From Terebella lapidaria (Eukaryota > Annelida > Polychaeta > Terebellida > Terebellidae), in contig OX424560.1 in NCBI GenBank assembly GCA_949152475.1, positions 24,553,106-24,617,105 on the forward strand: 64,000 nt of DNA. Direction: 5' to 3'. Made by a program: the position numbers and the translations under genes. Each line of letters opens with the position of its first letter. Positions within the stretch are counted from its first letter, which is position 1. The notes below the pieces were generated by a model, which searched no databases, was not told the origin of the DNA, and saw only the letters and a list, made by a program, of their open reading frames with translations. Of this stretch, positions 11,767 through 63,289 are shown in pieces.

Positions 11767-12452
11767 TATGTGAATTTTTTTCAGCGTATCTGTGTCAATC
11801 GTGACACACCGCTTGGTGTTAGAGGAGAACGGATGATCGAGTCTTGTAGAGTGTGTCTTATCATGCAGAATGATGATTACCGGGCTCGAGAAGGTGAGGA
11901 AAACACACCGATGCCATTAAAGTCTAAACAACGAGTGTACCATCTGAGCCCTGGCAAAGTTTTGTGCCGAATCTGGGAAATGTTTTATGTCTCATCTTGT
12001 GTTTCTAAAAGTCACAAATTATGAATAGTATTAGTGACAGAAATCCAATGTCAATTTAGGTTTGCCATATTAATAGCACCAGTTTCAGACAGTGTATGCT
12101 GTTGAACTTACTGACTTCTAGCTCCTGTCCTAAATGTGCAAAATAACTAATCAGTGTACTGAATAGGCATGTACATTGTATATGTCAAGATAGTAGCAGT
12201 ATCAAGGTCCAAACAATGCAAGCAGATTTATGCAATGCATTGCACATATTTGTACAGCCAGGACTTGTTAATCTAATTTAGAGCCACAATTCGCTGCTGA
12301 TGTTATTATGTACGACGTGTTGTAATTAGTTCATCCATTAGTCGTTGATACCATATGTCTCGATGCTTCTGACCCAGTTGAATAAGAGTATCCTAGTCGA
12401 CAAAATTATATTTCTCCAACCGTTTGAAGAATTTGGAGATTCTGTATCCACA

Positions 12453-12484
12453 CTGTATCGGTGGTAATAGATTGATACTTACAT
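12453..12484 (+). mobile_element. Truncated retroposon 3' end, copy 1
   Basis: The sequence CTGTATCGGTGG…GATACTTACAT is shared with four other sites (see 51408-51612). Units A and C lack it at the same paralogous position, between CCAACC and TACCACTGG, so it is an insertion specific to unit B. Confidence 0.6.
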
Positions 12485-12600
12485 GATACCACTGGAAAAG
12501 TCTTTGAATCCCTGACAAAGTCAAGAACTATTTTTGTGATGACAAGAAAAACACAAGAGTTCGTTTTTTTAATAAGACACAAGTTTAGTATATTATGGAG

Positions 12601-16108: not shown

Positions 16109-16678
16109 TTGTTCACTCAAATTCAATATGTGTATCGAAGACAGGGATCAATAAATCAGGCCTCATTTCATACAAGGCAACCACCTAGTAGTACCATGAA
16201 TGTCCGATACATAGATGATGTATTGTCGCTAAATAATCCCAAGTTTGGTGAATATTTGGATGTCATATATCCTAAGGAACTTGAAATTAAGGATACTACA
16301 GAATCCGCTAATTTTTCCAACTATCTAGACCTGAGGTTGGAGATTGATAATGATTCTAACCTGTCAACTAGATTATATGACAAACGTGATGATTTCAATT
16401 TTTCCATAGTCAATTTCCCTTTTCTAAGCAGCAACATTCCCATGTCACCGGCATATGGTGTGTTTGTTTCTCAACTTATACGCTATTCCAGAGCTAGTTG
16501 CAAATATGAGGACTTTGTCTATCGAAGTGCCCAGCTAGTCTCTAAACTGCTGCGACAAGGATATGTTTTACCAAGACTTATAGCTGCGTTTAAGAAATTC
16601 TATGGACGTCATCATGATCTGGTTGATAAATACAGCAAATCCATGTCTGCCATGCAACTAGATCTATTTTCATGTTAA
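16109..16678 (+). pseudogene. Reverse transcriptase C-terminal fragment (YIDD motif)
   Basis: The 189-codon frame carries RYIDDVLSLNN at residues 33-43; YIDD is the polymerase motif C with its two catalytic aspartates. Next come the conserved ELEIKDTT and YLDLRLEID blocks, LYDKRDDFNF, VNFPFLSSNIP, AYGVFVSQLIRYSRA and finally KFYGRHHDLVDKY, ending at a natural stop. These blocks are typical of a reverse transcriptase widespread in marine invertebrates and fish, probably Penelope-like or a close relation. The fingers and palm motifs A and B expected upstream are missing, and residues 1-29 do not fit the family, so the true homology starts near 16185. It is a 5'-truncated, dead copy with no endonuclease visible. 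It sits inside array unit C and is absent from the matching part of unit E. The family name is less certain than the reverse transcriptase assignment. Confidence 0.85.
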
Positions 16679-21818: not shown

Positions 21819-22024
21819 CACTGGGTGGGAGCTTGCCCATGATTCTTGACGAGTCAACTCGGTAAAAATCTTTCCTCGCAGGGGCATTGCTCGGCAAAAA
21901 TCTTTAATCACAGGGGCATCTGAAAGCCCATGGGACAAAAGATTTTTGCCGAGCAAAGCCCCTGCGAGGAAAGATTTTTACCGAGTTGACTCGTCAAGAA
22001 TCATGGGCAAGCTCCCACCCAGTG
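21819..22024. mobile_element. 206-bp foldback MITE with ATTAC duplication
   Basis: Two arms of about 86 bp are almost perfect inverted copies starting CACTGGGTGGGAGC, and the loop is only about 35 bp. The 5-bp direct repeat ATTAC flanks it (21814-21818 and 22025-22029). It is nested in the 2-kb TA element. CACTG ends with a 5-bp duplication loosely recall Transib, but the terminus does not match that family's usual heptamer, so the family is open. Confidence 0.8.
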
Positions 22025-26925: not shown

Positions 26926-26933
26926 TTTAATTT
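26926..26933. repeat. Left target site duplication TTTAATTT
   Basis: It is identical to 43049-43056 and abuts the left terminal repeat. Confidence 0.9.
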
Positions 26934-27391
26934 GGCTTACTGTAAAAAACGAAACGAAATGAAATGAAACGAAACGAGTGAAGTATAGGGTGTTCTCAAA
27001 ATATTTTTTCTCCAGATTTTTTCCCCAATTAATTTCTACAATTTTTTTTTATAATCCACATCAATGAAAACGACAGGTTCCTTTTTTGTTACCCTCGCCC
27101 CGGAGGGGGGGGCGAGGGTATTGCATGTCTGACTGTCTGTCCATGCGCATAACTCCGACACAAATGGTCCGATCGATGTGAGATTAATAGAGATGAAGCG
27201 GTATGGACGTGGCTTGAGCCTCAAGTTTTGACACCAAATATTGTACACACATGACATGTGATTTTACATCAAGGACAGCAGATATCCCTGGGAGGCCGGC
27301 GGAGATCAAGTGCATGAGAAAAGTGGTGGATGTACATACTGCTGCTTGACACATGATAGTTTATGGTTTAGAGATCACTGGTCAATTATTA
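26934..27391 (+). repeat. Left terminal inverted repeat of the giant element
   Basis: It starts with GGCTTACTG and GAAACGAAA-type repeats. It then contains a CCTCGCCCCGG/GGGGCGAGGG hairpin near 27095, and ends at GTCAATTATTA. It is collinear with the reverse complement of 42590-43048 with a few indels in homopolymers and one or two substitutions (for example GGCTTGAGCC against GGCTAGAGCC). Confidence 0.9.
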
Positions 27392-27484
27392 CTTGGCAAA
27401 ATAAATTTTGCCAAGTATGTTGGTCAGTCATCTTGTTACTTGGCAAAATAAATTTTGCCAAGTATGTTGGTCAGTCATCTTGTT
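27391..27484 (+). repeat. Duplicated 47-bp unit with a perfect hairpin
   Basis: ACTTGGCAAAAT…ATTTTGCCAAGT plus ATGTTGGTCAGTC occurs twice in tandem with a 47-bp period, then runs into a GTTTGTTTG tract. It is a sister of the ACTTGACGAAAT hairpins near 30212 and 30297. Confidence 0.85.
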
Positions 27485-28930
27485 TGTTTGTATGTTTGTC
27501 TGTCCGTCCGTTCGCACGCTAGCGGGCGCAATTCTTGCCGGATTTTCATGAACTTTTGACACAACATGTGCAAGTATCTTCCTCATAAGCCTTTCGTTTC
27601 TGAAGGTCAAAGGTCAAAAATTGACGCCAAGGTCGTTCAAAAACCAAAATATTAAAAATCGTAATAACTCCAGTTATATTTTATCTGGAGTTTCGAGATT
27701 TCTTGCATCGATTACTATGGCCAATTCTGCATCTTTTGGTGTATGGCCGACAGCTGTTGCATCAAAATTGACGATTTTGACTCCAGGTTAAAAAGACGGG
27801 GGTCAGGAGTTTCTGGATCAAAAGTTTCATGCATTGCTGTGCGGTCAATTCTTGTCGGATTCTCATGAAATTTTGACAGCATATGCACACAGTATAACGG
27901 CACATTCGTGTTGTTTCTCAAGGTCAAAGGTCAAGAATTAACGCCAAGGTCATTGAAAAACCACAAAATTAAAAATCGTCATAACTCCACTTTCATTCCA
28001 CCTGCACTTCCAAAAGTGTTCACGTCTTTTACTATGGCCAATTCTGCATCATTTGATGTATGACCGACAGCGGTTGAGTCAAAATTGAGGATTTAAACTC
28101 CAGGTGAAATAAATGGGGGTCAGGAATTTCGGATCCAAAGTTTAACACATTGCTGTGCGGTCGATTCTTGTGTGATTTTGACGAAATTCTCACATAATAT
28201 GTGCACGGAATGTCCGCATAACCCTTTTGATTTGGAACATCATAGCTCTCAAACTGTTGTCACGGCAACAGAAAATCGTTACTGAAAAGCATTACATGAA
28301 AACGATAATAGCATTGCTATATGAAACACTCTGCTTCACATCGCCAGCCACGTTAGTGCTGAGCGTAGAGTGTAGGACTTTGAATCCACAAACCCGGGTT
28401 CAATACTATCTCAAAACTATTTTTTTTCTCCATTATGAGATCATGTATTCAATTCCAAACAAGGAAACAACACATTCGTAGTGTACAAATTCAGCAAATA
28501 TATATAGCAGCAGTAATCTTCGTCATTTCTATGTCATCACACTCAATTATTTCTTGGTATATATGTTTCCAAGTCATTTACAGTGTCTCATTGGTTCCAT
28601 TATGATCATGTGTTTCATGCATCATAGCGCATCTGTGTTATCTCCTGAATATACAAAACTCGGTTGCGTAGTAATACAGTATATCATATATGTATCCAAA
28701 TGTAGGTCTCAAACAACATTTCTTTTGTTTTCTGACTCAGAGGTGTACAAGTGATGTAATAAAGCCTAAAAATCTGGTCTAAATACAGTCTGTGTCAAGC
28801 AACAGGCCACTTTATATCAGAACTATTGGGGGTGATCAACCGGCGGAGGAAACCTTCCCCATTCCCGGTTTTTAGCAGTAATTTGCCATAGAGGAACTGT
28901 TACAATACAACACAACTTGTCGGCCACTTT
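27485..28930 (+). repeat. Internal module alpha, copy 1
   Basis: It begins with TTTGTATGTTTGTCTGTC and AGCGGGCGCAATTCTTG, and carries two AGGTCAAAGGTCA motifs (27604 and 27921). Copies lie at 35430-36600 and 39100-40560. Frames are open only in short runs and shift between copies, so it does not look coding. Confidence 0.85.
28341..28412 (+). repeat. tRNA-like cassette 1
   Basis: An A-box-like GTTAGTGCTGAGCGTAGAG is followed about 30 bp later by CCGGGTTCAATAC, which resembles a B box. The acceptor and T stems do not pair well, so it is tRNA-derived rather than a working tRNA gene. It lies inside module alpha and is followed by a T-run. Confidence 0.55.
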
Positions 28931-28990
28931 GGTGCAGTGCGTAGAGCTCAGGACTTTGAATCCACAGACCCGGGTTCAAATCTCTCTTGA
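28919..28990 (+). repeat. tRNA-like cassette 2
   Basis: Reads TTGGTGCAGTGCGTAGAGC … ACTTTGAATCC … CCGGGTTCAAATC. This copy has the best B box (GGTTCAAATC) of the set. Confidence 0.6.
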
Positions 28991-29109
28991 AATTATTTTA
29001 TTTTTATTTTCAACTTACACAATCATGATCATGAATTTCGTTCTAAACAACATAACAACACAATTTAATAACTGTATCAAGCTAGTGTAAAAGCTAGTGT
29101 ATAGACTTC

Positions 29110-29935
29110 TTTTCCAGTTCATTACTTTATTTTGCCAAGTCCTAGCTCTCTGAGCGATTGCTTCAGTTGTATGTTGCTCAGCGATCAAATATGTGTTCTG
29201 TCCGTCTGTTTGCACGATAGCGGGCGCAATCCTTGTCGGAATGACATGAAATTTTCAAAGAAGATGCGCATAAGACTCTTGCACAAACCTATTGATTTTG
29301 AAGGTCATAGCTTAAAAACTGTTGTCTTGGCGACTGAAAAACCGATACATAACTATAACTATGGAGGCTGGAAAACCATAAAGTAACTGTTACATGGAAT
29401 ACACTTCTTCACACTGTCGGCAACATTGGTGCAGTGGATAGAGCGTAAGACTTTGAATCTGAAGACCCGTGTTCAACCCTCCCTCAAAACTCTAATCTCT
29501 TTTATCTCTAACTTAGTTTTTATACAGTCAGTTGCAGTGTTATTTCTAGTTTATAATGCACCTTTCACATTTGTAATAAATTGAAAACTCGCCGAGATAT
29601 CAAAGTAGAAAGAGCAGTGGGGTAAATCTGATTCTCAATCCGTTCACACGCCAATAAGCTGTAGAAACGATTACCCCCTGTGGACATGTCCCGTCCTAAA
29701 TACACACGCTCGGTTGCATAGCAATACAGTATATCATATATGTATCCAGATGCAGATCTCAAACAACATTTCAGTGGTTTTCTAACTCAGTGATGTACAA
29801 GTGATATAACAAAGCCTAAAACTCTAGTCTAAATACAGTCTGTGTCAAGCGACAGGCTCCCTTATATCAGGACTGCTGGCGGTGACGAACCGGCCCCTTT
29901 CCCGGTTTTCAGCAGAACATACAATAAATACACAA
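29110..29935 (+). repeat. Internal module beta, copy 1
   Basis: It starts at ATTTTGCCAAGTCCTAGC and includes GCGATCAAATATGTGTTC and AGCGGGCGCAATCCTTGTC. Other copies are at 36790-37310 and 37970-38790. Isolated copies of its first about 40 bp occur near 30172, 39055 and 40807. Its start contains one arm of the TTTTGCCAAGT hairpin. Confidence 0.8.
29416..29487 (+). repeat. tRNA-like cassette 3
   Basis: Reads TTGGTGCAGTGGATAGAGC, closest of all to a tRNA D arm. An anticodon-like arm TAAGA-CTTTGAA-TCTGA pairs at four of five positions, followed by CGTGTTCAACC. Confidence 0.6.
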
Positions 29936-29942
29936 CTTCACG

Positions 29943-30014
29943 CTGTCGGTCACGTTGGTGCTGTGCATAGAGCTCAGGACTCTGAATCCACAGACCCGGG
30001 TTCAACTCTCTCTC
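29943..30014 (+). repeat. tRNA-like cassette 4
   Basis: GTTGGTGCTGTGCATAGAGC … CCGGGTTCAACTC, followed by CTCAAAACTTG and a T-run. Confidence 0.55.
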
Positions 30015-30211
30015 AAAACTTGTTTTTTCTCTCTAACTTACAGGATGATGTCTTTTATAGCATAACTGCACAATTTGGCAAATAGATAATTTATGAAGAA
30101 AAGAACTATTCAATACTCTCTCAGAACGTTTTTTAGCTGGTTTATAGACTTCTCTTCAAGTTCATTAACTTTATTTTGCCAAGTCCTAGCTCTCTGAGCG
30201 ATTGCTTCATT

Positions 30212-30256
30212 ACTTGACGAAATTAAATTTCGTCAAGTATGTTGGTCAGTTGCGTT

Positions 30257-30287
<31 letters not shown>

Positions 30288-30400
30288 TTGTTTGTTACTT
30301 GACGAAATCAAAGATTTTGTCAAGTATGTTGATCGGTGCCGTTTGTTTTTTTGTTTGTTTGTTTGTTTGTTAGCGCTCTACAGGCCACAGTTTTGATCGG
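30212..30400 (+). repeat. Paired ACTTGACGAAAT hairpins with TGTC and GTTT microsatellites
   Basis: A 27-bp hairpin (30212-30238) and a second, imperfect one (30297-30325) both lead into ATGTTGRTCRGT. They are followed by (TGTC)n and (GTTT)n tracts, then TTAGCGCTCTACAGG. Related junctions occur at 32985 and 35397, so this looks like a recurring module end. Confidence 0.75.
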
Positions 30401-31160
30401 ATTGTTACCAAATTTTCAGGGTGAGTTCTGTAGGTCAATAGGCAGACAACGATTGCTTTTGGTCAAAATCTCTAAAAAATTGTTTCCATGGCAACAGAAA
30501 ACATGAAAAACACATAAAAGACTATAACTCTGGTTCTAATTGTCATAGAGACTTCAAATTAAGTGCATATTGTAGATATACTCGAGTTCTATCTTCCGTG
30601 ACCTTGACCTTGAACTTTGACCTTTACCTTGAGAAGTTCGCTTGAGGTCAAAGTCAAGGTCAAGTACGAAGGTCGGCACAGCATATCGAGTAGTATATCT
30701 TTGGAAAGGTCTCGAGCCCCTGATTCCAGTGATATCTCATTTTTGGCGCTGCGACGTAAACTGACGTCATAATGACGTCATAAACGTCAAAAATCCGAAA
30801 TTTCAAAGGGCCATAACACCGTCAATAGTGAATGGAATCCTTTGAAATTTGATATGCACTTTGACAGCATTGACTTCTACGAATTTAAGTGCAAAGGTCA
30901 AAGGTCAAGGTCAAGGTCATCGAAATCCCAGAAAAACACGTTTCCGGTAATAACATCTGTTTGAATCATTGTGGGCTCATGAAATTTGAACCATGTCATT
31001 CAGAAGAGGTATATCAATCAGACAAATATGTCAAATCCATGATTGACCTCGAATTTTGTCTATAATCTGACAAAGCTTAATCAGAATCTTATGAGGATTC
31101 TGGATTTTACAGATATTTTTAATGTTTTCATGGCTCCAATTTTCACAAATTTAATGAACA
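30400..31160. repeat. Single-copy interior segment rich in AGGTCA half-sites
   Basis: No gene seen. It includes a 20-bp-arm hairpin at 30603-30664 (CTTGACCTTGAACTTTGACC against its complement), one perfect AGGTCAAAGGTCA at 30895, and two TGACGTCA sites at 30762 and 30773. Confidence 0.6.
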
Positions 31161-31560
31161 TTAATTTTAAAGCATTTCCTTGCAGTCAGTTGCAGTGTTA
31201 TTTCTAGTTTATGGTCCACTTTTCACATTTGGAATAAATTGAAAACTCGCCGAGATATCAAAGTAGAAAGAGCAGTGGGGGTGAATTTGATTCTCAATCC
31301 GTTCAGATGCTAATAAGCTGTAGAAACGATTACCCCCTGTGGACATGTCCCCTTCTAAATATACACACTCGGTTGGATAGTAGTACAGTATATCATATAT
31401 GTATCCAAGTGCTCATCTCAAACAACATTTCTTTTGCTTTTTGACTCAGAGGTGTCCAACTGGTATGATAAAGTCTAAAACTCATGTCTAAATACAGTCT
31501 GGGTCAAGCGACAGGCCACTATATATCAGAATTTTTGGGCATGACGAACCGGCATAGCAA
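31160..31560 (+). repeat. Partial module beta fragment
   Basis: From GCAGTCAGTTGCAGTG onward it matches the second half of module beta (29520-29900 and 38355-38760), without the module's start or tRNA-like part. Confidence 0.7.
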
Positions 31561-31968
31561 CCGGCCCCATTCCCGGTTTTCAGCAGAATTTGTCTCACGA
31601 TCAAAGGTCCTGTGCATGCATCAGATATTTATGACAACAGAATCGCTCCCATCATAAGCAAAATTGCATGCTTCACTCTTTTGTCTTTTCGCACTCTAGC
31701 GTCCACAATTTTTGCGCTAGCATCCCCAAACTTCTTTGATGTACAGCTATCAGCTCTGTTACGGCACTGCACGTTTTTAAAAAAAAATCGGTTCATTGAT
31801 GACGTCACCAAAAATTCCTAAAAACTCGAAAAATCCCTATCTCTCATCATTAGCGAATTTTCAAAAATTCACACCGGAGTCATATTTAGTGCGATACCTC
31901 TGAAATTTGACACATTGATGAATGATGATATCGTCCATCAAACCGCGAAGTTTTGTTTGGATCCATCG

Positions 31969-32890
31969 AACGTCAATGACGTCACGACGTAAAACGTCAA
32001 TTTTTGAAATTAGGCTATATCTCAAAAAGTATTCGTCGTACAGAGAAGCGGATTGCACCACTGGAAAGCTCGTTGAATTCTGGTTTAGGAGGGTGCTGTC
32101 CGATACTTTTCCGCTATGATAAATTTTTCGCTATGACGTCATAAACGTAAGGCCGGTCATATCAATTTTTCGACTTTTCAGCGAACATTCAAACCTACAC
32201 TGTGCTCTCAAATTTGAAGGTATTGGACTGTGATTATGAGAACATATGTGGCATATTATTACCCAGTCATATACCGCGTTTCAACATGCCACGTGCAACG
32301 TCAATGACGTCATGACGTAAAACGTCAATTTTCAAAATGGAGCTATATATTGAAAAGTATTCATCGTACAGAGAAGCGCATCACACCACTGGAAAGCTCG
32401 TTGAATTCTGGTTTAGGAGGGTGCTGTTAGATACTTTTCTGCTATAATAGATTTTTCGCTATGACGTCATAAACGTAAGGCCAGTGATATAAATTTTTTG
32501 ATATTTCAGCAAACATTCAAACCTACACCATGCACTCAAATTTGAAGGTATTGGACTGTGATTATGAGACTATATGTGGCATATTAATACCCAGTCATAT
32601 ACCGAGTTTCAACACGTTACGGGCAACGTCAATGACGTCATGACGTATAACGTCAATTTTCAAAATGGAGCTATATATTGAAAAGTATTCGTCGTACAGA
32701 GAAGCGGATTGAACCACTGGAGAGCTCGTTGAATTCTGGTTTGAGAGGGAGCTGTCCGAGACTTTTTCGCCACGATAGATTTTTCGCTATGACGTCATAA
32801 ACGTAAGGCCGGTCATATAAATTTTTCGACATTCCAGCAAACATTCAAACCTACACCATGAACTCAAATTTGAAGGTATTGGACTGAATG
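31969..32890 (+). repeat. Tandem array delta, about 328-bp period, 2.8 units
   Basis: The block AACGTCAATGACGTCA recurs at 31969, 32297 and about 32625, giving a 328-bp period; the third unit is cut short at TTGGACTG. Each unit holds two TGACGTCA palindromes about 157 bp apart, a CACTGGAAAGCTCGTTGAA block and a CAAACATTCAAACCTACAC block. Confidence 0.9.
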
Positions 32891-33059
32891 TCTATGCCTA
32901 AATAGCATGTTGTCTAATATAACCTGCAAAATTTCAGGGTCACATCTCAGAGGTCAAGGTCAGGATCAGTTCAGTAATCATTTCGTCAAGCTTACGACCT
33001 ATGGTCGCTGGTTTGTTTGTTTGTTTGTTAGCGCTCTACAGGTCACAATTTTGATCGTA

Positions 33060-34420
33060 AAGTCCCGAAAATTTGTCAGAAGACGTGCAATTAGTACTCG
33101 ACCAAGTGATTAACTTTTGGGAGGTCAAGGTCAAAAACTGGGGTCAAGGTCAAGGAAAAGGTCAAAATCGAAAAATCGCAATAACTCCGTTTCTAATCAA
33201 TATTATTTTTTCTAGGTATTTTTATATTTTTCTATGGTCAATTCCGCATCATATGATGCATGCCCGATGGTCGTATGACCAAAACTCCCGATTTCCGGTC
33301 CAGGTCGAAAATTTGGGGGTCACGAATTTAGGTTTTTCCTGCCTCACAATATTCAAAACCATATAATAGAGCAAGTTCCCGATAGATGTTCCTGATTTTT
33401 ACTCAGAAGTTGTGCCTTATCACACAAAACACGATTGTGAAGTTATAGGACTCAAGGTCAAGAATTAGCGTTAAGGTCATAGTAAAGGTCAAAATCGAAA
33501 AATCGCAATAACTTCGCTTCTGATCAAAATTAATTTTTCTAAACATTTTTGTATTTTTATTTGGTCAATTCGACATCAGCTGACGTATGTCCGATGGTTG
33601 TACGACCAAAACTCCCGATTATCGCCCAAGGTCGAACATTTGGGGGTTTTGAGATCATTTGAATTTTGTACAATATTCAAACCGTTATTGTGGAGTCAAA
33701 ATCCAATATAAGTTGCTGATTTTTAATCAGTAGGTGTGTCTTCTCACACTGAACATATGTGTAAAGGTGTAGGACTCAAGATCAAGAATTACAGTTAAAG
33801 TCATAGTAAAGGTCAAAATCGAAAAATCGCAATAACTCCGTTTCTATTCAATGTTAATTTTTGTGAGTATTTTTATATTTTTTTATGGTCAATTCCACGT
33901 CCTGTGGTGCATGCCCGATGGTCGTACGACCAAAATTGCCGATTTTCGGTCCGGGTCAAAAATTCGAGGGTCTTGATTTTATGGTTTCATGTCTCGCAAC
34001 TTCAACCCCATATTGCGAGGCCAGGTTCTGATATGTGTTATTGATTTTTATTGAAATTGAACAAATCTGTGGAGTTTCTTAACTCAAGGTCGAAAATTGA
34101 GGTCAAGGTCATGTAAAAGGTCAAAATCGAAAAATCGCAATAACTCCACTTTCGATCAACATTAATTTTTGTCAGTATTTTTGTATTTTTGTATGGTCAA
34201 TTCGGCGTCAAATGGTGTATGTGCGATGGTCGTACGACCAAAACTCCCGATTATCGCCCGATGCCGAAAATCTGGGGGTCATGTGCAAGTTGCATAGTTG
34301 TAGCCCTAGAGTAGTGGCCGCAAAATTACCTAACATAAGTTGCCAATTTATAGGAAATATGAAATGTTTTATGCAGATTTGAATACACAAATATGAAATG
34401 TGGACTTTTCTTGCTCTAAT
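33060..34420 (+). repeat. Tandem array epsilon, 308-327-bp period, about four units
   Basis: GGTCAAAATCGAAAAATCGC recurs at 33160, 33487, 33811 and 34119, that is at 327, 324 and 308 bp. Units share TATGGTCAATTC, CCCGATGGTCGTA and GACCAAAACTCCCGAT. The sequence is unrelated to array delta even though the period is nearly the same. Confidence 0.9.
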
Positions 34421-34593
34421 TCTCCAATTGAGTTGACTGTGAAAGTTGGTTATCAATATTAGTTTGGGTTATAAAGTTACAGTTATTTTGGGATCGATTT
34501 CTTCGTGCAGTCATGCCGACATGCATGCGGTCATACATGTACAGTAAAAGTTGTTCACAATGGGGAAGGGAATACGGCAAAAAGTTGTATGAT

Positions 34594-34676
34594 GGCTTTG
34601 TGGCCGAGTGGTTACAGTGCTCACTCTCTAACACGTAGGCTGTTGACTCTGTGGGTTCGAATCTACCTGCTGGTAA
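34594..34676 (+). tRNA. tRNA-Ser-like sequence (tRNA-derived SINE head or pseudogene)
   Basis: A perfect A box, TGGCCGAGTGG (34601), and a perfect B box, GGTTCGAATC (34654), are spaced as in a long-variable-arm tRNA, and a T-run follows. The would-be acceptor ends do not pair and the anticodon stem is weak, so I read it as tRNA-Ser-derived and not a functional gene. It lies inside the giant element and is unrelated to the eleven cassettes there. Confidence 0.55.
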
Positions 34677-34739
34677 AAATTTTTTTTGCTCTTTGTTTTT
34701 TTTTAGAATATCCAGTACCATTATAATCTATTATAGCGG

Positions 34740-35395
34740 TTATCCAAGAACTTTTTGCAATGTGTTATGATATATTAATAATATACACTGTTGAATGATC
34801 ATTTGGTAGGAATATGGGCATTATGTCGTGCGAAAATTGTCGTCGCCTCTGTCATATAATACCAGTATGGCATACAAAAACGGCCATCACGATCTGCTTG
34901 AATTCATTAGATGGTTCTCCAAAGATGCAGCATCATGATATGAAAGTTACCAAGTTGTAGTAACGAACATTAATAGCAATACTGTATTTTATGATTTTTT
35001 TTATATTGACATCATCAAAATTTTGTGCTGTTAGTAGTATATACTATGTTGATACACACATCGATTGGATGTTTTAAATGAGTCAGTCTCAAATGGCTGG
35101 GTCTTGCTCAGGAGACGTCATAAACTTTCAATATGTATGTCTGCTCAGGAGTTGTGCATTATTAATTCTAACAAATTTTTGAAAATTCCGAATTCAGGGA
35201 CAAGTATTAAGGCCAAGGTCACTGTGTAAATGAAGCAACTCTTGTCTAATTTCTAAAATTGTGAATTCTACTGCTGGGTGATGCTCAGGAGGTGTCTTAA
35301 ATGTGTCAATTTCTAATGCTAGTTGTTCAGTAAATATTTTCAATGTGTAAATTATGAGTAAATGTTTTAAATGTAAATAAACAAATGTGTAGATA
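34740..35395. other. Giant-element interior, nothing recognised
   Basis: Single-copy, AT-rich and with no repeats shared elsewhere. It ends at TTTCGTCAAGTGTTGG, a module-end motif. Confidence 0.5.
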
Positions 35396-35429
35396 TTTCG
35401 TCAAGTGTTGGCCTATGGCCGATTTTTTG

Positions 35430-36600
35430 TTTGTTTGTTTGTTTGTATGTTTGTCTGTCCGTCTGTTATGACGATAGCGGGCGCAATTCTTGTCGCATTT
35501 TCATGAAATTTTCACACAATATGCGCAAGCAGCTTCCGCATAAGCCTTTCGTTTCAGAAGGTCAAAGGTCAAAAATTCACGCCAAGGTCATTGAAAAACC
35601 AAAAAATTTAAAATCGTAATAACTCCAGTTATATTATATCTGGACCTTCGAGATTTCTTGCATCGATTACTATAGCCAATTCTGCATCTTTTGGTGTATG
35701 GCCGACAGCTGTTGCATCAAAATTGACGATTTTGACTCCAGGTGAAAAAGACGGGGGTCAGGAGTTTCTGGATCAAAAGTTTCATGCATTGCTGTGCAGT
35801 CAATTTTTGTCGGATTCTTATGAAATTTTGACAGCATATGCACACAGTATAACGGCACATTCCTGTTGTTTCTCAAGGTCAAAGGTCAAGAATTAACGCC
35901 AAGGTCATTGAAAAACCACAAAATTAAAAATCGTCATAACTCCACTTTCATTCCACTTGCACTTCCAAAAGTGTTCACGTCTTTTACTATGGCCAATTCT
36001 GCATCATTTGATGTATGACCGACAGCGGTTGAGTCAAAATTGAGGATTTAAACTCCAGGTGAAATAAATGGGGGTCAGGAATTTCGGATCCAAAGTTTAA
36101 CACATTGCTGTGCGGTCGATTCTTGTGTGATTTTGACGAAATTCTCACATAATATGTGCACGGAATGTCCGCATAACCCTTTTGATTTGGAACATCATAG
36201 CTCTCAAACTGTTGTCACGGCAACAGAAAATCGTTACTGAAAAGCATTACATGAAAACGATAATAGCATTGCTATATGAAACACTCTGCTTCACATTGCC
36301 AGCCACGTTAGTGCTGAGCGTAGAGTGTAGGACTTTGAATCCACAAACCCGGGTTCAATACTATCTCAAAACTGTTTTTTTTTCTCCATTAAAAGATCAT
36401 GTATTCAATTCCAAACAACGAAACAACACATTCGTAGTGTACAAAATCAGCAAATAAATGATCTTTATCGTTATTATGTCATCATACTTAATTATTTCTC
36501 ACTATGAATTCCTTAAAGTCATTTAGCAGTGTCTCATTGGTTCCATTATGATCGTGTCCTTCATGCATCATAATGCATCTGTGTTAAGTCCATTCTGGCA
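35430..36600 (+). repeat. Internal module alpha, copy 2
   Basis: Nearly identical to 27485-28640, with perfect AGGTCAAAGGTCA at 35559 and 35876. It diverges after the CATCTGTGTTA block, where copies 1 and 3 continue. Confidence 0.85.
36297..36369 (+). repeat. tRNA-like cassette 5
   Basis: Same form as cassette 1, with TTGCCAGCC at its start instead of TCGCCAGCC. Confidence 0.55.
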
Positions 36601-36789
36601 TGATTTGTATTCACCGAGTGTCTCTATTCGTTTTGTTCACTTGTTGTCATTGTAATTTTTCATCTGTAACTTACAAGATCATGATCATGCTTTCAATTCT
36701 GAAGAATGTAGCAGCACAATTTAATATTATTACAGTATTATGATGCACGTGTTTATAGACCAAAGCTGGTTTATAGACTTCTCTTCAAG

Positions 36790-37310
36790 TTCATAACTTT
36801 ATTTTGCCAAGTCCTAGCTCTTTGAGCGATTACTTCAGTTGTATGTTGCTCAGCGATCAAATATGTGTTCTGTCCGTCTGTTCGCACGATAGCGGGCGCA
36901 ATCCTTGTCGGAATGACATGAAATTTTCAAAGAAGATGCGCATAAGACTCCTGCACAAGCCTATCGATTTTGAAGGTCATAGCTTAAAAACTGTTGTCTT
37001 GGCGACTGAAAAACCGTTACATAACTATAACTATGGAGGCTGGAAAACCATAAAGTAACTGTTACATGGAATACACTTCTTCACACTGTCGGCAACGTTG
37101 GTGCAGTGGATAGAGCGTAAGACTTTGAATCCAAAGACCCGTGTTCAACCCTCCCTCAAAACTCTAATCTCTTTTATCTCTAACTTAGTTTTTATACAGT
37201 CAGTTGCAGTGTTATTTCTAGTTTATAATGCACCTTTTACATTTGGAATAGATTGAAAACTCGCCGAGATATCAAAGTGGAAAGAGCAGTGTTATTTTTT
37301 TATGCACCAG
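36790..37310 (+). repeat. Internal module beta, copy 2 (short)
   Basis: Matches 29110-29620 and then breaks off after AAAGAGCAGTG. Confidence 0.8.
37087..37158 (+). repeat. tRNA-like cassette 6
   Basis: Same as cassette 3 except for AATCCAAAGACC in the anticodon-side region. Confidence 0.55.
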
Positions 37311-37738
37311 GAGTTATTTTCATAGTTTTCATGTCATACTTAACTATTTGTCGCTATAAATATCACTTAACAGTGTCTCATTGGTTCCATTATGATCGTG
37401 TCTTTTATGCGTCATAGCGCATCCGTGTTAGCTCCATTCTATCAATAATACATACATCATTATATCGTTCCATCTCGGTTGCGTAGTAATACAGTATATC
37501 ATAAAAGTATCCAAACGCAGATCTCAAACAACATTTCTTTTGTTTTCTGACTCAGAGGTGTACAAGTGATATAACGAAGCCTAAAACTCTTGTCTAAATA
37601 CAATCTGTGGCAAGCGACAGGCTCTTTTATATCAGAACTATCCTGGGTGACGAAACGGCGTAGAGATCAGCCCCATTCCCGGTTTTTAGCAGTAATTTGC
37701 CTTCAAGGACCTGTTACAATACAACACAACTTGATGCT

Positions 37739-37810
37739 GTCAGCCCCGTTGGTGCAGTGCATAGAGCTCAGGACTTTGAATCCACAGACCCGGGTTCAAC
37801 TCTCTCTCAA
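37739..37810 (+). repeat. tRNA-like cassette 7
   Basis: GTTGGTGCAGTGCATAGAGC … CCGGGTTCAACTC, intermediate between cassettes 2 and 4. Confidence 0.55.
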
Positions 37811-37969
37811 AACTTGTTTTTTTTCTCTCTAACTTACAGGATCATGTCTTTTATAGCATAACTACACAATTTAATACATGTACAACTTACTTAACAGCAA
37901 CTAGAAAAAACTATTCAAGTCTCTCTCAAAACGTTTTTAGCTGGTTTATTATAGACTTCTTTTCAAGTT

Positions 37970-38790
37970 CATTACTTTATTTTGCCAAGTCCTAGCTCTC
38001 TGAGCGATTGCTTCAGTTGTATGTTGCTCAGCGATCAAATATGTGTTCTTTCCGTCTGTTCGCACGATAGCGGGCGCAATCCTTGTCGGAATGACATGAA
38101 ATTTTCGAAGAAGATGCGCATAAGACTCCTGCACAAGACTATTGATTTTGAAGGTCATAGCTTAAAAACTGTTGTCTTGGCGACTGAAAAACCGTTACAT
38201 AACTACAATTATGGAGGCTGGAAAACCATGAAGTAACTGTTACATGGAATACACTTCTTCACACTGTCGGCAACGTTGGTGCAGTGGATAAAGTGTAAGA
38301 CATTGAATCCAAAGACCCGTGTTCAACCCTCCCTCAAAACTTTAATCTCTTTTATCTCTAACTTAGTTTTTATACAGTCAGTTGCAGTGTTATTTCTAGT
38401 TTATAATGCACCTTTTACATTTGGAATATATTGAAAACTCGCCGAGATATCAAAGTAGAAAGAGCAGTGGGGTGAATCTGATTCTCAATCCGTTCACACA
38501 CCAATAAGCTGTAGAAACGATTACCCCCTGTGGACATGTCCCGTCCTAAATACACACGCTCGGTTGCATAGCAATACAGTATATCATATATGTATCCAGA
38601 TGCAGATCTCAAACAACATTTCAGTGGTTTTCTAACTCAGTGATGTACAAGTGATATAACAAAGCCTAAAACTCTAGTCTAAATACAGTCTGTGTCGAGC
38701 GACAGGCTCCCTTATATTAGGACTGCTGGGGCTGGCGAACCGGCAAAGGAACTGGCCCCATTCCCGGTTTTAAGCAATACATACAATAAA
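37970..38790 (+). repeat. Internal module beta, copy 3
   Basis: Matches 29110-29920 throughout, including the TTACCCCCTGTGGACATG block. Confidence 0.85.
38266..38337 (+). repeat. tRNA-like cassette 8
   Basis: Most decayed of the cassette-3 type: GTGGATAAAGTGTAAGACATT. Confidence 0.5.
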
Positions 38791-38806
38791 TACACTACTT
38801 CACACT

Positions 38807-38878
38807 GTCGGTCACGTTGGTGCTGTGCATAGAGCGCAGGACTTTGAATCCACAGACCCGGGTTCAACTCTCTCTCAA
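38807..38878 (+). repeat. tRNA-like cassette 9
   Basis: GTTGGTGCTGTGCATAGAGC as in cassette 4, with GCAGGACTTTGAATCC following. Confidence 0.55.
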
Positions 38879-39099
38879 AACTTGTTTTTTCTCTCTAACT
38901 CACAGGATCTTGTCTTTTATAGCATAACTGCACAATTTAATACATGTACAACTTACTTAACAGCAACTAGATAATTTAAAAAAAAGAACTATTCAAGTCT
39001 CTCTCAGAACGTTTTTTAACTGCTTAATAGACATCTGTTCAAGTTAATTGACTTTATTTTGCCAAGTCCTAGCTCTTTGAGCGATTGCTTCATTTGTTT

Positions 39100-40560
39100 G
39101 TTAGTTTGTTTGTTTGTTTGTTTGTATGTTTGTCTGTCCGTCTGTTATGACGATAGCGGGCGCAATTCTTGTCGCATTTTCATGAAATTTTCACACAATA
39201 TGCGCAAGCAGCTTCCGCATAAGCCTTTTGTTTCTGAAGGTCAAAGGTCAAAAATTCACGCCAAGGTCATAGAAAAACAAAAAAAATTAAAAATCGTAAT
39301 AACTCCAGTTATATTATATCTGGACTTTCGAGATTTCTTGCATCGATTACTATGGCCAATTCTGCATCTTTTGATGTATGGCCGACAGCTGTTGCATCAA
39401 AATTGACGATTTTGACTCCAGGTTAAAAAGACGGGGGTCAGGAGTTTCTGGATCAAAAGTTTCAAGCAATGCTGTGCAGTCAATTTTTGTCGGATTCTTA
39501 TGAAATTTCGACAGCATATGCACACAGTATAACGGCACATTCCTGTTGTTTCTCAAGGTCAAAGGTCAAGAATTAACGCCAAGGTCATTGAAAAACCACA
39601 AAATTAAAAATCGTCATAACTCCACTTTCATTCCACCTGCACTTCCAAAAGTGTTCACGTCTTTTACTATGGCCAATTCTGCATCATTTGTTGTATGACC
39701 GACAGCGGTTGAGTCAAAATTGACGATATAAACTCCAGGTGAAATAAATGGGGGTCAGGAATTTCGGATCCAAAGTTTAACACATTGCTGTGCGGTCGAT
39801 TCTTGTGTGATTTTGACGAAATTCTCACATAATATGTGCACGGAATGTCCGCATAACCCTTTTGATTTGGGACATCATAGCTCTCAAACTGTTGTCACGG
39901 CAACAGAAAATCGTTACTGAAAAGCATTACATGAAAACGATAATAGCATTGCTATATGAAACACTCTGCTTCACATCGCCAGCCACGTTAGTGCTGAGCG
40001 TAGAGTGTAGGACTTTGAATCCACAAACCCGGGTTCAATACTATCTCAAAACTATTTTTTTTCTCCATTATGAGATCATGTATTCAATTCCAAACAAGGA
40101 AACAACACATTCGTAGTGTACAAATTCAGCAAATATATATAGCAGCAGTAACGTTAATCTTCGTCATTTCTATGTCATCACACTCAATTATTTCTTGTTA
40201 TATATTTTTCCAAGTCATTTACAGTGTTTAATTGGTTCCATTATGATCATGTGTTTCATGCATCATAGCGCATCTGTGTTAATTCCTGAATATACACACT
40301 CGGTTGCGTATTAATACAGTATATCATATATGTATCCAAATGCAGGTCTCAAACAACATATCGGTGGTTTTCTGACTCAGTGATGTACTAGTGATATAAC
40401 AAAGCCTAAAACTCTACTCTTAATACAGTCTGTGTCAAACGACAGGCCACTTTATATCAGAACTATTGGGGGTGATCAACCGGCGGAGCAAACGGGCCCC
40501 ATTCCCGGTTTTTAGCAGTAACTTGCCATAGAGGACCTGTTACAATACATACACCACTTG
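39100..40560 (+). repeat. Internal module alpha, copy 3
   Basis: Matches copy 1 (27485-28930) over its full length, with perfect AGGTCAAAGGTCA at 39238 and 39556. The module-beta start (ATTTTGCCAAGTCCTAGC) abuts it on the left. Confidence 0.85.
39976..40048 (+). repeat. tRNA-like cassette 10
   Basis: Identical in form to cassette 1 in the first module alpha. Confidence 0.55.
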
Positions 40561-40563
40561 ACG

Positions 40564-40635
40564 CTGTGGGTCAGGTTGGTGCTGTGCATAGAGCTCAGGA
40601 CTTTCAATCCACGGACCCGGGTTCAACGCTCTCTC
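40564..40635 (+). repeat. tRNA-like cassette 11
   Basis: CTGTGGGTCAGGTTGGTGC … CGGACCCGGGTTCAACGC. Confidence 0.5.
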
Positions 40636-41689
40636 AAAACTTTTTTTTTTCTCTCTAACTTACAGGATCATGTCTTTTATAGCATAACTGCACAATTTAA
40701 TACATGTACAACTTACTTAACAGCAACTAGAAAAAACTATTCAAGTCTCTCTCAAAACGTTTTTTAGCTGGTTTATTATAGACTTCTTTTCAAGTTCATT
40801 ACTTTATTTTGCCAAGTCCTAGCTCTTTGAGCGATTGCTTCATTAGAATTTGTAACCAAAAAAAAATCTTGTTTCGTTTCGTTTTTTACAGTTACCCACC
40901 ACCAGTAACTGTAAAAAACGAAACGAAACGAAAAAAAAAATTTTTTTGGGAGATTTTCACAAAAATTCTCAAAGACCTTCAATATGAGGATCTGAGCTTC
41001 AGGGTCAGTTTTGACGCCAAATGCACACATGACATGTCGTATCTATTACATCATAGGAGACTATTTGCTGAGAAGCCTGACACGTCCCTCAATTTCTAAT
41101 CCCAGTTTGTGGATCCCAACGTGGCATTATGGTGCAGTGCAGTATCATTAATGTGTCAAGCTGATTTAACATCACGGACAGCTGATATCCCTGAGAGGCC
41201 GGTGGAGAATAAGGTCCATGAGAAAAGTGGTGGATGTACATACCGTTGCTTGACATATGATAGTTTATGGTTTAGAGATCACTGGTCAATTATTAGAATT
41301 TGTAACCAAAAAAAATCTTGTTTCGTTTCGTTTCGTTTTTTACAGTTACCCACCACCAGTAACTGTAAAAAACGAAACGAAACGAAAAAAAAAATTTTTT
41401 TTGGGAGATTTTCACAAAAATTCTCAAAGACCTTGGTATATGCCTTCTTTATGAGGATATGAGTCTCAGGGTCAGTTTTGACACAAAATGCACACATGAC
41501 ATGTCGTATCTATTACATCACAGGAGACTATTCGTTGAGAAGCCTGGCTTTCCCGGTTTGTGGAACCCAACGTGGCATTGTGGTGCAGTGCAGTAACATT
41601 AATGCGTCAAGCTGATTTTACATCACGGACAGCAGATATCCCTGAGAGGCCGGCGGAGAATAAGGTCCATGAGAAAAGTGGTGGATGTA

Positions 41690-41971
41690 GGGCAGATTCA
41701 GGTAGACCGATACACTTAAGACTTTTGACTCAATTGACTGATTTTCTGGCTCATGATTAATAGACGGGCGTTATACTGTGGCACGTGCAGCATACACATA
41801 TGCATAACACAAAATCCTTAATGTAAATTTTTAATTGCCATGCATATTGTTATTTACACACATACTTTTTCGCTTAGAGTCGGTGTATCGGTGAAACTGA
41901 TGCCATTCAGTTTGACCGATACACGTGTTTCAGGCTGACCGATACACCAAGATCGAGACATATATACACCC
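41690..41971. mobile_element. 282-bp insert with TA duplication
   Basis: It interrupts GTGGATGTA…CATACCGCTGC. The uninterrupted form GTGGATGTACATACC is present in the arms and terminal repeats of the same element. TA flanks it (41688-41689 and 41972-41973). The insert begins GGGCAGATTC and contains GACCGATACAC three times plus one inverted copy, two of which form a hairpin around 41883-41925. Its two ends match only at GGG, so the class is unclear. Confidence 0.65.
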
Positions 41972-41996
41972 TACATACCGCTGCTTGACACATGAT

Positions 41997-42167
41997 GGTT
42001 TAGAGATCACTGGTCAATTATTAGAATTTGTAACCAAAAAAAATCTCGTTTCGTTTCGTTTCGTTTTTTACAGTTACTGGTGGTGGGTAACTGTAAAAAA
42101 CGAAACGAAACGAAACAAGATTTTTTTTGGTTACAAATTCTAATAATTGACCAGTGATCTCTAAACC
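41997..42167. repeat. Long near-perfect palindrome
   Basis: From GGTTTAGAGATCACTGG to its complement, about 85 bp per arm, centred on TTACTGGTGGTGGGTAA. Such a structure should be unstable in cloning and replication. Confidence 0.85.
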
Positions 42168-42589
42168 ATAAACTATCATATGTCAAGCAACGGTATGTAC
42201 ATCCACCACTTTTCTCATGGACCTTATTCTCCACCGGCCTCTCAGGGATATCAGCTGTCCGTGATGTTAAATCAGATTGACACATTAATGATACTGCACT
42301 GCACCATAATGCCACGTTGGGATCCACAAACTGGGATTAGAAATTGAGGGACGTGTCAGGCTTCTCAGCAAATAGTCTCCTATGATGTAATAGATACGAC
42401 ATGTCATGTGTGCATTTGGCGTCAAAACTGACCCTGAAGCTCAGATCCTCATATTGAAGGTCTTTGAGAATTTTTGTGAAAATCTCCCAAAAAAATTATT
42501 TTTTTCGTTTCGTTTCGTTTTTTACAGTTACTGGTGGTGGGTAACTGTAAAAAACGAAACGAAACAAGATTTTTTTTGGTTACAAATTC

Positions 42590-43048
42590 TAATAATTGAC
42601 CAGTGATCTCTAAACCATAAACTGTCATGTGTCAAGCAGCAGTATGTACATCCACCACTTTTCTCATGCACTTGATCTCCGCCGGCCTCCCAGGGATATC
42701 TGCTGTCCTTGATGTAAAATCACATGTCATGTGTGTACAATATTTGGTGTCAAAACTTGAGGCTCTAGCCACGTCCATACCGCTTCATCTCTATTAATCT
42801 CACATCGATCGGACCATTTGTGTCGGAGTTATGCGCATGGACAGACAGTCAGACATGCAATACCCTCGCCCCCCCCCCTCCGGGGCGAGGGTAACAAAAA
42901 AGGAACCTGTCGTTTTCATTGATGTGGATTATAAAAAAAAATGTAGAAATTAATTGGGAAAAAAATCTGGAGAAAAAATATTTTGAGAACACCCTATACT
43001 TCACTCGTTTCGTTTCATTTCATTTCGTTTCGTTTTTTACAGTAAGCC
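42590..43048 (-). repeat. Right terminal inverted repeat of the giant element
   Basis: Reverse complement of 26934-27391. It contains a nine-C run in the CCTCGCC…GGGGCGAGGG hairpin. It ends ACAGTAAGCC, immediately followed by TTTAATTT. Confidence 0.9.
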
Positions 43049-43056
43049 TTTAATTT
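43049..43056. repeat. Right target site duplication TTTAATTT
   Basis: Identical to 26926-26933. Confidence 0.9.
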
Positions 43057-43627: not shown

Positions 43628-45231
43628 TTGATGAACTCCCTCCCATTCACAGTACTCATATTTGAATTATTTCGAAGGTAAAAAAAATTATCCCAAAACC
43701 GTTGAATTTTATATTTAATAATCAGCTTTCCACTAATTCACTGTGTAGTGGGTTCTTTTCTTACCCACTGATATGTTTCCTCCATGTTTATCATTTGATG
43801 ACGTTTGTTGCTAAGCTAATGAAAAAAAACCAAATAATTTATTTCTCCAAAATTTTATTAATGAATCAGTTGTTCATTGCTGAAACAGGTGTGGATTGGG
43901 AGATGGAGGTTTGAAATTTAGACTCATCCATCAAATGGAAAGTGGTCATATCTTCACTTTCTTCGAAGGAATAATGAAATTCGTTGATCAGTAAGGTGAG
44001 CATAACTGACTGTTTTTAATATCTCAATCTTGGAGATTAAAAACATTCATTTCGTACTATCTTCAATGAATCGATTGTCTATACATGTTAGGTTGTTTTT
44101 CAAAATTACACATTTGTTGTTGAATATTCGCAAATCTTATTCAAACAATTTAATATATACCTAACTGGCCCAGGTAGGTTTCGATTTTTGCTTTTCTATA
44201 GTCAAAAGGAATTACTTGGAAATGCCAGACATATTAAATGGTATGTATAACCTTCTTGGACCCTACTGTAAAAATAATGTAAATCTATCTCACTATAAAA
44301 TGAAATATAAAATCCTCACCAGGGGTGCAATTTATCTGCTGTCCGACCCACACAGTTCCAGAGCACATGAGCTGCCATGGATCAATCTTATACGATTCAC
44401 ACCCATCAGGGCGCTCTGCTCATTCCGCTTGACCCAACCCCAAGTCGACGGCTCAGGGTCAGGACAGCCAATCACTAGGGGCGGCGAAACTAGGTATTAG
44501 ATAAGCATATTGTGGATCGTTTTGTATGTCGTATATTATTGTCTTTTCATAATCACAAAAATACTATTTATTATTGACCCACGGAGAGAACATAGTTATA
44601 CAACTTTAATTAATTTCATATATAGTTATTGGATATTTAAATTTCATGGGAACAGACATAAATGTCACAATCCTGTTTTTTCTTCTCAGCATGGCTGTAT
44701 GAGCATTTTCGATTCATTATGTAATCTCACCCACATTTACATGTATACTGTAATTGCACAGGTTTACCTAATTGCCTAATTTGACATCTGGCCTGAACAC
44801 AAGAATAATATGCTTTGAACTATATTATAAGGCGAGTGATCAAGTACAGTAAAAATCAGATAATGACAAATGGCAAAGTAACGGTACAGACACGATAAAT
44901 TCTACCCGAAAGGTTCAAAACACATTGACGACAATTCTTTTTCCTCCAGGCCTTGTCTCTTTCTCTACCCCCTCTATTGCGTAACTACGTCCAATTAACA
45001 CGAGTACTCTTGCGATGACATGTGATATCGAATCCACTAAATACCGTCTACAGGCCCCTTCCTACTCCCCAGAAAGATATATAGCTGCTCTTAACGTCAA
45101 AACCAGTAGTGACACGGATGGAATCTCGAGAGTAATCGCCAGAAAGCCACACGGAAAATTACACCGTGGTCACCATGGTTATATAGGATCTATTTTCTTT
45201 CCACTGCTTAGGACTCACTGTCATAATGTAG

Positions 45232-45441
45232 AAGGAAGTGACCACGACCATATAGATCATAATCTTGAGGCTTTTGCCCAGCGAGACAAAGGCTGACTCC
45301 TGTCGCACGTTTTCCTCACATACTGTGGCACTCCGCGGACTGTCAGGTTCTTCGATGGTGACATAAACCTTACAGAGCATGGCTCCAGACCCTGACGTCC
45401 CTTGGTTGACAGTTCTGCTTGAATATATCCTCTTGACACAC
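45232..45441 (-). CDS. Candidate exon with CUB-domain character, copy 1
   Basis: On the minus strand a strong acceptor (a pyrimidine-rich tract ending TTTTTGTTTAG) stands directly before GTGTGTCAAGAGG. Reading in phase 1 gives CVKRIYSSRTVNQG…, then LCKVYVTIEEPDSP, ATVCEENVRQES and AFVSLGKSLKI. The pattern of a strand, a cysteine, then …F(V/S)SxGxSLxI is what the middle of CUB domains looks like, so this may be one exon of a secreted or membrane-bound CUB protein. A paralogous copy lies at 62940-63151. The 3' border is uncertain; a weak GT follows near 45245. No neighbouring exon could be joined to it with confidence. A different minus-strand frame (45257-45439) is also open here and in the copy, so the frame choice rests on the CUB-like pattern alone. 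Confidence 0.4.
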
Positions 45442-46241
45442 CTAAACAAAAAGTAAAAACATCGAAGTCGCATTTTAGTGAAATTCATATCATATTACTG
45501 TTATTATGAAACATGTGCGATACATATAAATGTTTCATTTGTAACAATGTATAATTTTAAAAAATACAATACATATCGTTGTGTGGGATATTATGGAATT
45601 ATCCAATAAATTATGATATCTCACAATTACAGACGTAGTCCTTTGAACATGCAGTATAGTGATGTGGCCAGGAATGTGTTCTATCGTGCATTGTTTATTA
45701 GGTATCACAGTTTATGTGAACCAATTTTGCCCACGAGAACAGTAAATGTAATGGCATTATAATTTTCAAGGTTATCACAGTGTGGCGCCAGCTTTCGTGT
45801 GATATAAGGTCACACTTAATTGGACACAAAATTCTGACCAGTTCAGATTCTGTGGAAGGGACAAATAATGGCTGTCATATGTCATATTCCCCTTGGGATG
45901 CCACCCATAACAGGAAACTAAATTAGAAAGACATGAAGAATCTTGCGGCCCATATTGTGCCAAAGCTCGAAGCCTTCGACAGTTCCACAGTAGGATCTTT
46001 GCTTTTCCCGGGTGAACTTTTCACGAGTTGCCTTTTATGATTTGCCGAGTTGTCTGTGGACATCATAGACCCATGAAGTAACTGGAACTAAAGCGAAGAC
46101 CATTTGAAAATGATGATTTAAAGGGTACCACAATGTAGGCAAGGATGTGTTGGAAAGCAACAGCTTTTGTTCCTCAATTATGACTACCCCCGAAGCCCTA
46201 ACTCCTGCCTGCTAAAACACCCCTGGTCCCCTCTTGTTATT

Positions 46242-63151: not shown

Positions 63152-63289
63152 CTAAACAATAAGTTAAAAAAATCGAAGTCGTATTTTAGTGAGATTCATA
63201 TCATATTACTGTTATTATGGGAAATGTGCGATATATATAAATGTTTCATTTGTAATAATGTATAATTTTAATTAATTGGTTAAAATCTG

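Follow-up and report, generated by a model that had tools for sequence, protein, structure and literature searches.

Is a 16-kb stretch of DNA that is framed by inverted ends and one target duplication a single giant transposon, or a smaller element that was enlarged after it had landed? The question is raised by a locus in the polychaete Terebella lapidaria, contained in a 64,000-bp stretch (C6:24553106-24617105, forward strand) of a 761.6-Mb assembly of 438 contigs; this whole stretch is referred to below as the window, and positions without a contig name are window positions. The locus had been described from its letters alone (hereafter the sequence-only reading) as a 16-kb composite that appeared to have moved as a unit, perhaps by hAT- or P-type transposition. 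The data presented here argue for a different history. Very probably, an ordinary fold-back transposon of 2.7 kb was interrupted at a later time by a Helentron-type insert of 13.5 kb, so that the locus comprises two mobile elements of known kinds, one inside the other, and not a single giant transposon.

Ends, arms and empty site of the element

The element spans 26934-43048 (16,115 bp), with GGCTTACTGTAAAAAAC at both tips (identical across the 17 bases compared) and, in agreement with the sequence-only reading, a perfect 8-bp duplication on its two flanks. Its parts are the following.

26926..26933, no strand: left target duplication TTTAATTT, identical to 43049-43056
26934..27388, plus strand: left arm of the fold-back element, outer part up to the insert (terminal inverted repeat), 98.7% inverted match to 42590-43048
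27389..40842, plus strand: nested composite of HINE-like (non-autonomous Helentron) units, 13,454 bp, delimited by its junctions compared with the empty site, the uniqueness of these junctions and its HINE-type ends
40843..41404, plus strand: left arm of the fold-back element, inner part, 98.6% inverted match to 42034-42593
40882..40918, no strand: palindromic joint, two element tips back to back; more joints at 41336-41372, 42064-42100 and 42518-42554
42034..43048, minus strand: continuous right arm of the fold-back element, from self-comparison
43049..43056, no strand: right target duplication TTTAATTT, identical to 26926-26933

The nearly identical inverted ends of about 459 bp that had been noticed earlier are real. 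In a self-comparison of the window, the outer terminal inverted repeat aligns across 460 bases at 98.7% (26934-27391 with 42590-43048); in a mononucleotide-shuffled window (n = 1), the longest inverted match was 29 bases. The extent of the repeat, on the other hand, had been underestimated. A second inverted pair (40842-41404 with 42034-42593, 98.6% across 563 bases) continues the outer repeat to a full length of about 1.02 kb, with a left arm that stops after 27388 and resumes at 40843; the apparent end length of 459 bp arises because the insert cuts the left arm there. When 27392-40841 is removed in silico, 2,665 bp remain and the arms, 1,021 bp long, are 98% identical; the exact cut, at 27389-40842, leaves an element of 2,661 bp and defines an insert of 13,454 bp. 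The interior holds no long frame, as had been stated: the longest stop-to-stop frame in the window copy comprises 128 amino acids. A search of Rfam returned no matches.

The site of the cut can be defined to the base. The insert junctions read CAATTA followed by TTACTTGG on the left and GCTTCA followed by TTAGAATTT on the right, compared to CAATTATTAGAATTT at the empty site; the left arm at the cut consists of CAATTA and then TTAGAATTT, and the empty site also occurs in the right arm and at two other places in the window. Removal of the insert restores this site exactly, with zero bases lost, gained or duplicated. In 27 genomic stretches checked, 103 empty sites, spread over 26 of the stretches, and no occupied site were found. 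The window itself contains four empty sites in addition to the split one. The left junction has 38 genome places at up to two mismatches and is exact only in the window; none of the other 37 has the arm sequence free of mismatches, most of them being GGTCAGTCATTACTTGG, that is, HINE behind HINE. For the right junction, at up to three mismatches, the window is the sole place in the genome (control, 0).

An assembly chimera, with the two ends joined through a misplaced satellite segment, might be suspected from the resemblance of the insert to long arrays on other contigs, which are error-prone for assemblers. The junctions, however, lie at exact HINE ends and the arm is rejoined without the loss of a base, and such an artifact is hardly credible.

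Movement of the whole 16.1-kb unit, with the HINE composite inside it before it landed at TTTAATTT, has more in its favor. The duplication borders the entire unit, and cut-and-paste transposition after gain of the insert would leave no second copy. Moreover, duplication-bearing pairs of 6.9-8.8 kb exist, which indicates that ends 8 kb apart do move (other pairs in this size range lie at C8:17487697, on C12, and at C13:4752559, C14:3601681 and C16:15326206). Nevertheless, a nested insert with ends of a different kind accounts for 13,454 of the 16,115 bp; it lacks a duplication, its two junctions each occur once in the genome, and movement of the larger unit is not required by any observation. 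Only one other duplication-bearing pair exceeds 10 kb. This pair, C14:1773809-1792936 (19,128 bp, duplication ATAGATTTA), has fold-back arms and an interior (C14:1773709-1793036) with long frames and 738-bp direct repeats, 100% identical and about 13 kb apart, that resembles a nested long terminal repeat (LTR) retrotransposon. Both duplication-bearing giants that were opened thus owe their size to nested insertions. Transport of the 16.1-kb unit as a whole is accordingly a quite improbable reading, and the earlier proposal to that effect found no support. A nest may pass for a giant transposon, and a single duplication together with a pair of ends is no proof of joint movement.

A split fold-back would instead have arisen in two steps. 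A 2,661-bp non-autonomous fold-back with arms of about 1.02 kb would have entered TTTAATTT by cut-and-paste transposition, with duplication of 8 bp. Later, the HINE composite would have entered the left arm at a TT dinucleotide by a rolling-circle mechanism, enlarging the element by 13,454 bp with no duplication of the target.

The fold-back family and its candidate transposase

Queried against the genome, the outer repeat (1-458) gave 44 full-length matches at 97-100% among the matches listed (40 of 1,014 candidates scored). Both ends were present in 14 of the first 20 stretches, with perfect 8- or 9-bp duplications in 12 of these 14, an imperfect duplication in one (L017) and none in the other (L022). 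Among four further regions, those on C16 and C9 had a perfect duplication, C2:12276280 an imperfect one, and that on C7 was without a right end. The exact 24-base tip, to which the tip count is confined, occurs 74 times genome-wide, 36 times on one strand and 38 times on the other (control, 0). From these tips, 28 convergent candidate pairs spanning 0.8-19.1 kb can be formed; one right end on C7 and one on C11 enter two pairs each, with different left ends. Tabulation of the flanks, as the sequence-only reading had suggested, revealed perfect duplications in 24 of the 28 pairs (8 bp in 10, 9 bp in 14), compared to 2 of 756 mispaired flanks.

The family is of the fold-back kind: its inverted arms are long, modular and built of repeats (arms of about 0.6-1.06 kb, outer repeat of 458 bp), and all 19 elements examined contain tip-to-tip palindromic joints, TTTTTTACAG-TTACCCACCACCAGTAA-CTGTAAAAAA or near variants. 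The arm identity of the window copy, 98.3%, is the lowest of the 19, which would be weakly consistent with an older copy. Against such dating, arm identity within elements (mean 99.3%) is not above that between elements (99.2%), and arm divergence therefore dates copies poorly; the partner arm of the same element was the best match, or tied for best, for 9 of 38 tips.

Copies that carry a transposase-like frame and share the ends of the family, the kind of relative for which a search had been proposed, were found on three contigs. A 6.0-kb copy on C16 (duplication ACTGTTTA) contains a 417-amino-acid frame between its two ends. This frame had 11 matches in the genome, the top three of which (C16, C15 and C8) were 98-100% identical and the next 38%. 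The C8 copy (C8:18901978-18910674) is an 8,697-bp element with ends at 97% identity, the 8-bp duplication AGATAGAC and an open frame of 887 amino acids, and the C15 copy has a 697-amino-acid frame beside a left end, with no right end in the 10 kb read. The SWIM zinc finger (PF04434) scored 22.6 bits in the 417-amino-acid frame and 22.1 bits in the 887-amino-acid frame, above the cut-off of 19.6. D322, D389 and E524 are invariant across a seven-row alignment, as are C676, C678, C688 and H690 of the SWIM finger, and these three acidic residues form a candidate DDE triad.

By a duplication length of 8-9 bp, Merlin and Mutator are both candidate superfamilies. The choice among the candidates was decided by the transposase-bearing copies and by nothing else. 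Long terminal inverted repeats and a transposase zinc finger, often SWIM, are typical of the Mutator-like (MULE) superfamily, and both were observed here. The duplications of 8-9 bp lie within the 8-11 bp given for MULE targets (PMC6446971). A relative, P0003 (26% identical), aligns with the MULE model over 99 of 99 positions (2.4e-5) and with IS256 (8.8e-4); for three closer relatives (35-39%), the best MULE-model value was 0.091. A profile search for labelled homologues returned four proteins, all without Pfam labels. Taken together, the protein of the three copies is most likely a divergent Mutator-type transposase, for which we infer the name MULE.

Several results weigh against this assignment. 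The MULE domain PF10551 had no match in the 887- and 417-amino-acid frames, and none of its 39 genome matches falls at the three transposase copies. Among homologues, P0003 scored highest against the MULE model, at 25.1 bits, which is below the cut-off of 27.6, and a profile search of solved structures gave chance-level matches only (E of 0.36 or worse). An assignment to hAT, P or Merlin, superfamilies whose duplications are 8 bp long, would draw on the missing PF10551 match in the transposase itself and on the 8-bp length of 10 of the 24 perfect duplications. The other 14, however, are 9 bp long; a Pfam scan of the 887-amino-acid frame at E values up to 1 recovered SWIM but none of the hAT, P and IS1595 domains; and the MULE and IS256 matches of P0003 point elsewhere. 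An origin of the host family outside Mutator is therefore unlikely. The hAT or P transposition suggested in the sequence-only reading was rejected on the duplication lengths, on the Pfam scan, and on the SWIM finger and putative Mutator-type DDE arrangement of the transposase.

The 887-amino-acid protein is the probable source of transposase for the family, and the shared ends suggest that the fold-back copies could be mobilized in trans. The DDE/SWIM transposase behind the insertion at TTTAATTT would then have been supplied by full-length relatives such as C8:18901978-18910674, and would most likely be of the Mutator (MULE) type.

Further observations were made in the course of these searches. 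A relative of the transposase, 38% identical, has an open frame of 1,192 amino acids at C6:41975419. An 18.8-kb pair on C7 lacks a duplication, contains other large frames in the part read and has its right end in common with a 16.6-kb C7 pair. A terminus in this region with only 42 shared bases (L021, 2355) was considered as an autonomous relative and rejected, given the other large frames and a pair without duplication. At C7:21105288-21121000, minus-strand frames of 1,113 and 755 amino acids lie between end-like sequences without a duplication; the larger, which includes a 60-base repeat section, is presumably OTU-like. Two left ends on C11 (C11:2398340 and C11:2399547), which are 1,207 bp apart, agree in their flanks and in their 9-bp duplication, with 358 identical bases of flank and end, reflecting either a local duplication or an assembly error.

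The HINE insert and its relatives in the genome

The internally amplified modules that had been noticed in the 16-kb element are likewise real and are located in the insert, the features of which are listed below.

27392..27415, plus strand: palindromic subterminal repeat CTTGGCAAAATAAATTTTGCCAAG at the 5' side of the insert, with a second copy at 27439; 47-bp tandem pair at 27389-27484
29130..29165, plus strand: internal HINE 3' end, from the 3'-end sequence
30174..30209, plus strand: internal HINE 3' end, from the 3'-end sequence, directly followed by a new 5' end TTACTTGACGAAAT
30210..35425 (outer limits approximate), plus strand: second HINE type, with 5' ends at 30210 and 30295 and 3'-end-like hairpins after 32981 and 35396
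31969..32886, plus strand: satellite-like central repeat, 328 bp, 2.8 copies, from tandem repeat detection
33157..33948, plus strand: satellite-like central repeat, 324 bp, 2.4 copies, from tandem repeat detection
36802..36837, plus strand: internal HINE 3' end, from the 3'-end sequence
37980..38015, plus strand: internal HINE 3' end, from the 3'-end sequence
39057..39092, plus strand: internal HINE 3' end, from the 3'-end sequence
40807..40842, plus strand: outermost HINE 3' end, with subterminal repeat, hairpin GCTC-TTT-GAGC and final 10 bases GATTGCTTCA

Published HINEs are described as having a T-rich target, a palindrome 8-35 bp before the 3' end, and subterminal repeats of 12-15 bp, often palindromic, of which the 5' copy lies 2-4 nucleotides into the element and the 3' copy about 38-60 bp before its end (PMC4067079). 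The insert begins with TTA, followed, 3 nucleotides in, by a 14-bp subterminal repeat within the palindrome CTTGGCAAAATAAATTTTGCCAAG. An inverted copy of this repeat starts 40 bp before the 3' end, and a GCTC-NNN-GAGC stem lies 10 bp before it. Repeat length and both spacings are thus those of HINEs, and the target is TT without duplication. The 5' palindrome folds at -9.2 kcal/mol (z = -5.03). One result speaks against a HINE-type terminus: the 3' hairpin of the insert shows no folding advantage over shuffled sequences (z = -0.08 for the GCTCTCTGAGC variant). For related stems, z was -2.10 at 32.98 kb and -1.69 at 35.40 kb.

HINE 3' ends occur six times in the insert, five internally and one at its outer boundary. 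The units contain GTTT/GTCT-type microsatellites, 317-328-bp tandem repeats and AAGGTCA-rich modules; modules measure 1.0-1.6 kb, and the longest module pairs are 5-8% divergent. Six 3' ends, one of which abuts a new 5' end, together with these contents identify the insert as a HINE composite in which two or more types are combined. The second type has multi-copy relatives of its 30210-33005 portion in the genome.

Similar units are found well beyond the window. Exact copies of the 22-base HINE 3' end number 2,009 (1,035 and 974 by strand; control, 0), and among the places listed, all beyond the first six fall on one strand of C1:41,149,868-41,366,407. This region is an array of HINE-related modules of more than 200 kb, part of which shows an alternation between 1,041-bp and 1,552-bp spacings. 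In a 5.4-kb sample (C1:41158200-41163600), a unit of about 2.59 kb is repeated at 99.8%, and the sample aligns with modules from the insert in the window at identities of 79-92%. Among 150 scored genome matches to Helitron_like_N, those at C1:41189668 and C1:41324513 fall in gaps of the array. Sequences resembling the 5' end of the insert are also present on C3, C5, C6, C8, C12, C15, C16 and C23.

Successive HINE insertions beside each other's ends could have built the composite in place: head-to-tail HINE joints are common among the first 100-odd places listed, and Helentrons are described as preferring T-rich targets (PMC4067079), an example of which would be their own TT ends. However, the outer boundaries are a 5' end on the left and a 3' end on the right of one HINE type, and composite arrays of such units are present elsewhere in the genome. 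The divergence of 5-8% between modules is equally expected for units of independent descent. Construction in place is a serious contender that we would rate somewhat below an even chance. Tentatively, and with confidence that likewise falls short of even, a 13.5-kb Helentron-derived satellite with a true 5' end, five internal 3' ends and a sixth 3' end may have been moved from an array to a distant site in one rolling-circle step. If so, Helentrons would act as vehicles by which satellite arrays of several kilobases are seeded, and the C1 array, with its higher-order unit and Helitron-type genes in the gaps, would have been grown and exported by the same machinery. Since Helentron-type satellite DNA here occupies a datable target defined by an empty site, the link between rolling-circle transposition and the spread of satellites becomes testable.

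Precedents and neighboring features

Long modular inverted repeats and 8-bp duplications are also known from the TU elements of sea urchins, which the fold-back family resembles in general description. A parallel is provided by Tm1, a Mutator/Foldback element of root-knot nematodes, which is described with variable composite fold-back repeats, 9-bp duplications, few transposase copies, many non-coding ones and nested uncharacterized insertions (PMC3169594). Tm1-A has the Pfam MULE domain and FLYWCH (Phantom) in that account, whereas duplications of both 8 and 9 bp, a SWIM finger in the protein and no match reaching PF10551 characterize the present family. Tetris of Drosophila virilis likewise has modular arms, of up to 1.7 kb, duplications of 8-10 bp and a transposon-satellite link (PMC4079207). 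In contrast to the three transposase copies found here, none was found for Tetris; the present case is one of a fold-back family with a probable transposase in the same genome. In addition, the satellite source is the fold-back itself in Tetris and the nested HINE here. According to the same authors, most fold-backs seem to be members of Mutator (PMC4079207). Plant MULEs with multiple long terminal inverted repeats are also amplified and have more than one terminus-like unit per end, but these units are described as mostly tandem (PMC3310237), in contrast to the tip-to-tip palindromic joints observed here.

The insert has precedents as well. Mite HINE/Helentron and DINE-1 elements share its palindromic subterminal repeats, T-rich target and internal microsatellites or tandem repeats, and have a 3' palindrome to which its GCTC-NNN-GAGC stem would correspond (PMC4067079); it differs from them in being composite, with at least two HINE types and, for the outer type, five internal 3' ends. 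Cg_HINE of the Pacific oyster is described as having HINE ends around satellite-like central repeats and as inserting into other transposons (PMC7492417), with monomers of about 140-180 bp, compared to 317-328-bp repeats and 1.0-1.6-kb modules in the window. Judged from titles and abstract openings, no earlier description of the fold-back family of this genome was recognized in the literature. Given these precedents, the family is therefore counted as new, of known kinds. Both it and the insert represent known kinds of mobile DNA, and the composite HINE insert is the more interesting half.

Outside the element, the window contains two long direct duplications, 1-5645 with 6163-12570 (pieces at 81-90%) and 43640-46159 with 61289-63909 (pieces at 79-89%). 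A 193-amino-acid frame at 16097-16678 has a YIDD motif and is reverse-transcriptase-like, with no Pfam family matched; we take it to be Penelope-like. At 21819-22024 lies a near-perfect palindrome of 206 bp (93%).

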